From an uncultured Kiloniellaceae bacterium (GTDB lineage: Bacteria > Pseudomonadota > Alphaproteobacteria > Kiloniellales > Kiloniellaceae), in NCBI GenBank assembly GCA_947493695.1, contig CANLSF010000001.1:1116001-1180000 (forward strand): a stretch of DNA of 64,000 nucleotides, given 5' to 3'. A model generated the notes under the pieces. It had not been told where the DNA came from. It saw nothing but the letters and a program-made list of their open reading frames with translations, and did not search any database. The position numbers were made by a program, and so were the translations under genes. Positions 57,734 through 60,476 of the stretch are shown here, piece after piece (position 1 is the stretch's first letter; every line of letters begins with the position of its first letter).

Positions 57734-58813
57734 TTAAATCGCAAAACGCGCCACCGCGTCCTCGTCCCATGCCGTACCCAGCCCTGGGCCACGCGCGGTG
57801 ACCTTTCCGTCTTTCACCGGCATCGGCTCCTGAAGAATAGCACCGGCAATATCCAGGAACTCCAGATAGTGCGCGGTTGGTGTGACCGGCAGGACATGAG
57901 CGCTGGCCTCGACAAAGAGATGGCTGGAAACCGGGATGGCGTTGACTTCTGCAATTCCGGCGGCGCGGATCCAGGCGGTGATGCCGCCGATTTTCATCAG
58001 ATCCGGCATAGCGCAGTCGCAGGCACCTGCGCCAATAGCCTTGGCCATATCCTGCGGGAACCACCAGTTCTCTCCGGTCTGGATGGGAGGCGTTACGGCC
58101 GCGCGAACTTCCGCGTGACCAACGAAGTCTTCCGCGGGAACGGGTTCCTCCACCCAGGCCAGATCGAATTCGCTGAGCGCATCGATCCTGCGAATCGCGT
58201 CGGGAACACTGCGGGATTGATTAAAGTCGACCATCAACTCGACGTCCGGCCCGATGATTTCACGCACAGCGGATACCATCGCGATATCGCGCGCAAGATC
58301 GCCGTCGCCGATTTTGATTTTGATCGCGCGGAAGCCGCGTTCCAGGGAACGCTCCAGATCCCCACGGTCCTCCTGCGGATCGACAACACCGTAGCTGTCA
58401 TAGGCCGGAATTGGCTGTGCTTGCCCCCCAAGCAGACTAACCACCGGCAAATCAGCCGCTTTACCCAAGGCATCCCAAAGGGCCATATCGAGGCAGGAGA
58501 GTACCATGCCGACCAACCCCTGACGGCCCAGAAGCCGGAGGCGGTTCTCATAAAACCTGGCCTGCTCCGCAGGCGCGACCACCTGACCGATCAGGCTCTC
58601 CTCAAGTTCCGTGAGCAGGGCAACGATAGCTTTCAGGGTCACGGGCGTGTAGCCGAACACATAAGCCTGCCCCGAGATACCCTGATCCGTTTCCACATCG
58701 ATCAGCACCAGGGGCGCACTGGGCAAGGTGCCAACTGCCGTTCGGACAGGCCGTGCGAGCGGTGCGATTACGGCACGGCTTTTGAGACCGGTTACGGTCA
58801 GTTTTTGGGTCAT
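57734..58813 (-). CDS. Enolase-superfamily enzyme, mandelate racemase/muconate lactonizing type
   Basis: 359 residues. The catalytic Lys pair is in FRAIKIKIGDGDL (K-x-K); metal ligands are in VELMVDFNQSRS, LAWVEEPVPAED and IQTGENWW; a His is in VSSHLFVEASAH, paired with Asp in MPDLMKIGG, which points to the mandelate racemase subgroup. It abstracts a proton next to a carboxylate; racemase and acid-sugar dehydratase activities are both possible. It is divergent from the ammonia-lyase homologue across a 148-bp region. Confidence 0.92.
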   Translation of the reverse strand: MTQKLTVTGLKSRAVIAPLARPVRTAVGTLPSAPLVLIDVETDQGISGQAYVFGYTPVTLKAIVALLTELEESLIGQVVAPAEQARFYENRLRLLGRQGLVGMVLSCLDMALWDALGKAADLPVVSLLGGQAQPIPAYDSYGVVDPQEDRGDLERSLERGFRAIKIKIGDGDLARDIAMVSAVREIIGPDVELMVDFNQSRSVPDAIRRIDALSEFDLAWVEEPVPAEDFVGHAEVRAAVTPPIQTGENWWFPQDMAKAIGAGACDCAMPDLMKIGGITAWIRAAGIAEVNAIPVSSHLFVEASAHVLPVTPTAHYLEFLDIAGAILQEPMPVKDGKVTARGPGLGTAWDEDAVARFAI

Positions 58814-58961: not shown

Positions 58962-60476
58962 TTGGATCCGGATAAACTTGTCACACTCACAGGAAAAGAT
59001 CTTGCGCCCCGGCAACTTCATAGGATTGCGAAGGGTGAAGCAAAGGTGGCACTTGCACCCGAGGTGAAAGCCGTTTTGCTTCGGGACCGTGCCGTGGTTG
59101 ACAGGCATGTGGAAGCCGGAGAGCCGGTCTACGGTCTGACCACGGGCCTAGGCTCCAAATCTACGGAGGCCCTGCCGCGTGAAGAGCTCGCGGCCTTTTC
59201 CCTGCAGACCCTGCGTGGTCGCGCCCAGGCTCTTGGTGATCCCCTAACGGTATCTATGGCCCGGGCGGTACTGGTGGCGCGTCTGAACGGGCTCTGTGTG
59301 GGAGGGAGCGGCGCAAGCCTTGCGGTGGCGGAGAGTCTGCTTGCCTGTTTGAACAAAGCTATAACACCTGTGATTCCCCAAACCGGGTCCGTTGGAGCCA
59401 GCGATCTCTGTGTGCAGGCCGTCATGGGGTTGGCGCTGACCGGCGAGGGGGAAATGTTTTTTGAGGGAGATCGGCTTCCTGCCATGGAGGCGCTGGAACG
59501 GGCGGGCATCGAACCCCTAAAACTGGGACCCAAGGATGGGCTCGCGCTGTGCAGTTCTTCCGCCTTTTCCGCAGGTTTAGCGGCGATGGGCCAGGTCTCG
59601 GCATTGCGTGCGCTGCGAAGCACTCAGGTCGCCGCAGCCATGACGATGGAAGGTTTTCGCGCCAATGCGTCGCCCCTGCGGGTTGAGGCGCTCGAGGCCC
59701 GTCCCCAACCCGGGCAGATTGCGGCCGGTGAAGAACTCCGGACGCTTTTGAACGGAAGTCTCTTGCTGGAGCCCGGCAATGCCCGGCGGCTTCAGGATCC
59801 GCTCTCCATCCGGTGCGTCGCGCAGACACACGGTGCGGTCTATGCCACGCTCGATTTCCTTGCCGCTACATTGGATGCGGAGTTAAACGGAGCCAGCGAT
59901 AATCCCTTACTGACCGAGGCTGGTGAAATGGTCTCCAACGGTAACTTTCAAACCCCGCTTCTTGGGATCGCATTGGATAGCGTGGCCCGCGCGCTGGCGG
60001 GATTGGCGACGGCAAGCCTTGCACGGATTGCACGGCTTCTGTCTCCTGAGCTCAGCGGTCTGCCCCGCTTTCTCTCTCTGGGGAGCAGCGGATCCGCGGG
60101 ATTTGCGCCGGTCATAAAACCAGCCGAAGCACTGCTCAGCGAAATCCTGCACCTGGCAAATCCTGCGCCCTTGGTGAACAGCGCTTCCGCCGAAGGTGTC
60201 GAGGATATCCTGACACATACGCCGCTTTCGGCGCTCAAGTTGATGCAGCTTCTGGATAAGCTCGATCACTTGATTGCGATTGAATTACTGGTGTCGGTTC
60301 AGGCGGTCGAGCTGGCAAAACCGCAGCGTATTGCGACGGGACTCGTAGACGTGATGTTTCAGATCAGAGGCTTTTCGCCTCCGTTGGAGACGGACCGGCC
60401 TTTGGGCAGAGAGATTGAAACGATTGTTAGAGAAATGATTGCGCCGGGACATTTACTTGAGGTCGCAGCCTCCTAA
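58962..60476 (+). CDS. Histidine/phenylalanine ammonia-lyase-family protein lacking the MIO glycine
   Basis: 504 residues from TTG 58962 (AAGGGAAA about 12 bases upstream). The fold match is clear: Tyr57 in VYGLTTGLGS, TGSVGASDL, GLALCSSSAFS, LQDPLSIRCVAQ, ELNGASDNPL and SNGNFQ. In active family members the triad Ala-Ser-Gly forms the MIO cofactor; here residues 146-148 are Ala-Ser-Asp, with exactly one residue missing compared with HutH. The Asn of the usual LNGT motif and the Tyr of QDPYS are also replaced (Cys/Ser and Leu). It is therefore probably not an ordinary histidine ammonia-lyase. Confidence 0.85.
   Translation: MDPDKLVTLTGKDLAPRQLHRIAKGEAKVALAPEVKAVLLRDRAVVDRHVEAGEPVYGLTTGLGSKSTEALPREELAAFSLQTLRGRAQALGDPLTVSMARAVLVARLNGLCVGGSGASLAVAESLLACLNKAITPVIPQTGSVGASDLCVQAVMGLALTGEGEMFFEGDRLPAMEALERAGIEPLKLGPKDGLALCSSSAFSAGLAAMGQVSALRALRSTQVAAAMTMEGFRANASPLRVEALEARPQPGQIAAGEELRTLLNGSLLLEPGNARRLQDPLSIRCVAQTHGAVYATLDFLAATLDAELNGASDNPLLTEAGEMVSNGNFQTPLLGIALDSVARALAGLATASLARIARLLSPELSGLPRFLSLGSSGSAGFAPVIKPAEALLSEILHLANPAPLVNSASAEGVEDILTHTPLSALKLMQLLDKLDHLIAIELLVSVQAVELAKPQRIATGLVDVMFQIRGFSPPLETDRPLGREIETIVREMIAPGHLLEVAAS

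Follow-up and report, generated by a model that had tools for sequence, protein, structure and literature searches.

A Short-Loop Relative of Histidine Ammonia-Lyase in an Uncultured Kiloniellaceae Bacterium, a Candidate MIO-Independent Lyase

The window, a stretch of 64,000 nucleotides from the genome of an uncultured Kiloniellaceae bacterium, encodes on its forward strand (58962..60476) a member of the aromatic-amino-acid-lyase family whose MIO loop is one residue shorter than that of HutH. We put at about one half the probability that this protein is catalytically active as an ergothionase-like elimination lyase that works without MIO and would set trimethylamine free from hercynine or another trimethylated histidine. 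MIO-free members of the HAL fold are already known through ergothionase, and the clade of the window lyase is separate from it. A wider proposal, which we hold more tentatively, is that this clade is a second type of lyase without MIO, one that stands in for HutH in some bacteria and channels hercynine into the breakdown of urocanate, together with a partner of the ornithine-cyclodeaminase (OCD) family with which it closely co-occurs, the members of the clade being labelled histidine ammonia-lyase.

Results and Discussion

The Lyase Gene and Its Family

The gene begins with TTG and encodes 504 amino acids. In a profile search the product scored 425.4 bits against PF00221 (gathering cut-off, 27.3), placing it firmly in that family, but only 363.8 bits against the hutH equivalog TIGR01225, whose cut-off is 539.15. 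Eight NCBIfam families match it, none of which fits by cut-off, and no NCBIfam family named ergothionase was found, even with the ergothionase of Treponema denticola as query; that enzyme likewise obtains a sub-threshold hutH score. A canonical HutH is encoded elsewhere in the window genome (G000). A second paralogue in this genome (region G000:C1:179082-180539; L050) has Ala-Ser-Gly intact and lies about 6 kb from a trimethylamine-methyltransferase-family (MTTB) gene at C1:186309. A same-genus orthologue, L034, shares 76% identity with the window lyase and has the identical string GSVGASDL.

The Shortened MIO Loop

The string GSVGASDL (residues 142-149; 59385..59408, + strand), which the first-pass annotation had located within 59384-59423, corresponds to GSVGASGDL in HutH, and alignment of the two proteins leaves one residue missing between Ser147 and Asp148. 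All 19 HutH-type sequences have Gly at this site; it is empty in all 98 aligned family sequences, the window lyase and ergothionase included. Eighty of these 98 came from a search with the patterns ARR[LV]QDP[LI]S and [PA][VA]YG[LI]T[TR]GLG (the best 80 of 112), neither of which selects for the loop or for Lys386, discussed below. The two residues before the Asp vary within the family (AA, AS, AG, EA, ES, EG, and rarer pairs), so that what characterises the family is the shorter loop alone. The first-pass claim that one residue, the Gly, is missing thus stands as to length, and the identity of the lost residue can be stated for the window protein alone. Since identical letters recur in the orthologue and the loop is short across the family, a sequencing error that had removed the Gly, a possibility raised at the outset, is excluded.

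The place of the MIO-forming Ser is taken by Ala, Gly, or Asp in 72 of the 98 sequences (Ala or Gly in 71), and in those 72 no dehydroalanine, hence no MIO, can form. Ser is found in the remaining 26, including the window protein (Ser147).

Other Active-Site Residues

Several residues of the HutH active site are kept, all coordinates here being on the + strand. Tyr57 (59130..59132), the counterpart of the catalytic Tyr of HutH, is Tyr in 19/19 of the HutH type and in 96/98 of the family, the two exceptions being a gap and a His. Arg284 (59811..59813), the counterpart of the carboxylate-binding Arg of HutH, and Glu414 (60201..60203), the equivalent of HutH Glu414, are both present in 98/98. The SDNP motif is also retained, and on this motif and Tyr57 our reading agrees with the first-pass annotation.

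That annotation was also right that the Asn of LNGT (Asn195 in HutH) and the Tyr of QDPYS (Tyr280) are replaced, by Ser198 (59553..59555) and Leu281 (59802..59804), respectively. The Asn is invariant in the 19 HutH-type sequences, yet it also occurs in 33 of the 98 family members. The Tyr is likewise found in 19/19 of the HutH type, and the family has Leu or Ile there in 98/98, a figure from which the commonness of Leu281 cannot be read because QDP[LI]S lies within a search pattern that supplied 80 of the sequences. Two further changes had been overlooked. Arg87 (59220..59222) occupies the position of HutH His83, which is Arg in 76 and His in 22 of the 98 family sequences and His in 17 and Asn in two of the 19 HutH-type ones. 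Lys386 (60117..60119), common to the window lyase and ergothionase, is present in 89/98 of the family (nine lack it) versus 0/19 of the HutH type.

Taken against HutH (TIGR01225), then, the window lyase has in common the Pfam family, the fold, Tyr57, Arg284, Phe329, and Glu414, and differs in the loss of the Ala-Ser-Gly triad, in the replacements at the Asn195, Tyr280, and His83 positions, and in its score below the hutH cut-off.

Relatives by Sequence, Fold, and Phylogeny

In a phmmer search of solved structures, two HALs ranked first (238 bits each) and the T. denticola ergothionase third (221 bits), with an alignment to the latter that is gap-free at the loop. An AlphaFold2 model (pLDDT 94.4; 40 window-and-locus sequences as input) shows the predicted structure of the window lyase to have the HAL fold. 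The best Foldseek match of the model is ergothionase 6s7j (E 3.3e-35, TM 0.93, 29% identity), with HAL 6v6h close behind (E 3.0e-34), a small margin that amounts to tenfold in E-value only. PAL/TAL and the aminomutases, which carry MIO, belong to the same superfamily but have lower model scores and are lower-ranked structural matches.

A tree was built from 108 sequences, with ten of the HutH type as the root. It unites the six ergothionase-type sequences in a single clade (support 1.0; 100 with wider outgroups) and places the window lyase outside it, among other MIO-less sequences that are sister to that clade. When 12 divergent lyases were added as wider outgroups, the 38 sampled MIO-less sequences and a further protein, L176, grouped on a single, moderately supported branch (UFBoot 73), and five other short-loop proteins with a different motif were placed far away. 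L176 (G019:C16:57452-59010), which has a short loop and QDPLS, sits on a long branch within the MIO-less group. The five others (L177, L178, L183, L184, and L185, from G049, G044, G047, G040, and G056, respectively) constitute a second, very divergent group of the HAL superfamily (27-29% identity), with the short loop GNG[CG][PA]GE[IL] or GQGGAGEIL, with QAPVS and QND in place of the customary motifs, and they too lack Ala-Ser-Gly; L183 and L178 in NCBIfam, and L183 in the PDB, give only sub-threshold or weak HutH-type matches.

By its short loop, QDP[LI]S, Lys386, and position on the same tree branch (UFBoot 73 with the wider outgroups), the window lyase belongs to a broad, ergothionase-like MIO-less group. 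The T. denticola enzyme (PDB 6s7j/6s7q) shares with it the HAL fold, the loop short by one residue, QDPLS, Lys386, and the Tyr, Arg, and Glu. The window lyase is not an ergothionase proper, however: the two lie in separate sister clades, the ergothionase clade has G[WL]NK (GWNK in T. denticola) and a His where the window lyase has GSKS and Arg87, and the loop pair is EG in ergothionase and AS in the window lyase. Ergothionase is described in PMC13405746 as resembling HAL, PAL, and TAL, as being without MIO, and as releasing trimethylamine and thiourocanic acid. A short-loop member of the family is thus a solved enzyme reported to be MIO-less, which supports the first-pass suggestion that the window protein has no standard MIO and carries out different chemistry.

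Genes Flanking the Lyase

The first-pass annotation had noted enolase-superfamily, MmgE/PrpD, and aldo/keto reductase genes nearby. As a clue to the pathway, these fail. The block of MmgE/PrpD, racemase, aldo/keto reductase, orf163, and FAD protein genes occurs in the same order in two same-genus genomes, G002 and G003, that have no lyase, the starts of the racemase and reductase genes being about 240 bp apart there versus 1705 bp in the window; the lyase is found at this place in G000 and G001. Because the block persists in its absence, the window neighbours say nothing about what the lyase does. The enolase-superfamily neighbour (57734-58813) is mandelate-racemase-like (446 bits to 3toy, 338 bits to mandelate racemase 1mdr), and is much closer to these two than to sugar-acid dehydratases. 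No hut, MTTB, OpuAC, or OCD gene lies within 9.0 kb before or 3.5 kb after the window lyase, and none was found in the stretch examined around the orthologue L034.

Partner Genes at Related Loci

Gene context was compared at 97 loci, which include that of the window and six from the ergothionase side or the plasmid set, most with flanks reaching up to 10 kb and many with shorter ones. Counts are based on tblastn, an earlier codon-scored survey of open reading frames having overlooked the lyase itself in four of the 97, and an OCD-family gene was counted when it matched either of two references at 55% identity or more. Such a gene was the commonest partner among those looked for, lying within 10 kb in 50 loci and within 200 bp in 29. 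At least one hut gene was found in 14 loci and two or more in nine, an MTTB-family gene in nine, an OpuAC-family binding protein gene in 15, and a HutC-like gene in nine. None of OCD, hut, MTTB, or OpuAC was found in 38 of the 97, including all 13 titled Mesorhizobium. At L132, L140, and other loci, a PhnD/SsuA-type binding protein is encoded next to the paired OCD and lyase genes.

Six of the nine multi-hut loci (L035, L036, L037, L042, L044, and L067) have no second HAL-family gene in the stretch fetched, and there the lyase stands in the place of HutH; the other three (L080, L129, and Psal2) do have one. MTTB accompanies four of the six (L036, L037, L042, and L044). The L036 stretch carries genes for MTTB, the lyase, a methyltransferase, OCD, HutF, HutI, HutG, and a urocanase, the last of the ordinary kind, scoring above the hutU cut-off and below that for thiourocanate hydratase. 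In the hut/lyase cluster of L035, an 811-amino-acid open reading frame (L035:12252-14684) has no Pfam or NCBIfam match; it overlaps the tblastn place of HutF and so may be spurious, on another strand or frame.

The subclade of the window lyase includes L052 (with OCD and MTTB), L053 (OCD), and L054 (OCD, HutF, and HutH). At the Rhizobium locus L083, the adjoining GntR regulator exceeds the cut-off of the HutC model TIGR02018 (279 bits against 220) but not that of NF011575 (237 bits against 424). The OpuAC protein there resembles nicotine/acetylcholine sensors, ProX, and, lower down, the ergothioneine binder EgtUC, a mixture that does not decide between betaines.

Co-occurrence with an OCD-Family Gene

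The OCD orthologue of the window genome (G000:C2:654173-655159; 67% identity) is unlinked to the lyase, and its own neighbours (LysR, aldo/keto reductase, LysE, and amidotransferase genes) give no further clue to the substrate. This genome also encodes one urocanase and six MTTB-family proteins. Across 58 genomes, the window's own included, 15 have both lyase and OCD, two the lyase only, four OCD only, and 37 neither (Fisher 1.5e-8, shared ancestry ignored). Presence of the lyase in this set was assigned by hand, from matches of about 290 bits upward, to which a fragment in G057 with 46% identity was added; L176, more distant and from a genome (G019) without OCD, was left uncounted. The two lyase-only genomes, G007 and G037, are draft assemblies whose contamination values are 8 and 10.

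Two screens of 289 class-level genomes, in which no more than 5 and 7 candidates, respectively, were scored in each genome, found the lyase at E 1e-78 in eight and OCD in 21, with OCD present in all eight lyase genomes (1.9e-10, kinship ignored) and 13 of the 21 OCD-bearing genomes having no lyase at the threshold used. In six of the eight, the two genes are separated by 1.6 Mb or sit on separate contigs. Within the genus of the window bacterium, G000 and G001 carry both genes, and G002 and G003 neither. We regard the OCD-family gene as a likely partner of the lyase.

Proposed Chemistry and Alternatives

PAL in which the MIO Ser had been exchanged for Ala lost practically all activity on Phe, according to PMC3903478, which suggests that expulsion of ammonia needs MIO; against this may be set ergothionase, reported to lack MIO, which expels a tertiary amine. 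In the mechanism that we propose for the window lyase, Tyr57 or another base would take the beta-proton, Arg284 would hold the substrate carboxylate, and Lys386 and Glu414 would polarise the substrate ring, allowing a good leaving group, a tertiary amine derived from a quaternary ammonium, to depart without an electrophilic MIO. With less confidence, the substrate may be hercynine, or another N-trimethylated histidine closely derived from it, and would be split into a urocanate and trimethylamine, given that the hut setting of some loci indicates a urocanate-type product and the MTTB and OpuAC genes indicate quaternary amines, which together suggest hercynine or a relative. The OCD-family enzyme would act in the same pathway.

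Several observations weigh against this reading. The loci of the window lyase and its orthologue, like 38 of the 97, have none of the informative neighbours; in the tree the protein falls beside rather than within the ergothionase clade, whose G[WL]NK and His it does not have; two HALs outscore ergothionase by sequence, and the lead of ergothionase by fold is small. Lys386 is absent from 9/98 sequences, 13/21 OCD genomes have no lyase at the threshold used, and release of trimethylamine gives the OCD enzyme no obvious job.

Such a job would exist if the lyase, also MIO-less, acted on a beta-substituted imidazolyl amino acid with a leaving group other than trimethylamine, and the OCD partner reduced the resulting enamine or imine. 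Analogues of this scheme are a dehydratase with BhcD and EutB with EutC. The OCD partners do score against the BhcD and EutC models, though well below the cut-offs, and the frequency of OCD at the loci, with its co-occurrence even when non-adjacent, would be accounted for. We consider this the main alternative, though a rather unlikely one, since the MTTB genes near 9/97 loci and OpuAC genes near 15/97 point to quaternary amines and the best structural relative is reported to release trimethylamine.

An ergothionase proper, with ergothioneine or its sulfonate as substrate, is the best fold match and has an equally short loop, but we think it improbable that the window lyase is such an enzyme: it is excluded from that clade with support of 1.0 and 100, it has neither G[WL]NK nor the His, and the L036 hut cluster carries an ordinary urocanase rather than one reaching the thiourocanate-hydratase cut-off. 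A catalytically dead or regulatory HAL paralogue, the latter a role entertained in the first-pass annotation, would explain the loss of the triad and of two HutH active-site residues, and appears more improbable still; to judge from the alignment, the conserved Tyr57, Arg284, and Glu414, the new Lys, and the pairing and co-occurrence with an enzyme-type gene argue for catalysis, and the solved homologue is reported to be active. That Ala-Ser-Asp forms an unusual MIO-like group in the window protein, for which the Ser kept in 26/98 sequences might speak, is very improbable, as the relatives with Ala or Gly there (71/98) share the rest of the active site and the loop is one residue shorter.

Annotation and Significance

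At the level of titles and the beginnings of abstracts, we found among the open-licence PMC papers listed no description of this clade, of a hercynine/urocanate lyase, or of a cluster of OCD, HAL, MTTB, and betaine genes. Forty plasmid records were listed for the window protein, 26 named histidine ammonia-lyase or hutH, two aromatic amino acid lyase, and 12 unnamed; the loops read in two of them (L136 and L140) are both short, L140 being named histidine ammonia-lyase/hutH. Members of a whole branch labelled histidine ammonia-lyase cannot carry the cofactor that the name implies. If they do split trimethylamine from histidine betaines, a natural metabolite that is already known would acquire a bacterial route, trimethylamine would have a source in these enzymes, and the branch would serve as a natural experiment on where the MIO group is required and where it can be dispensed with.
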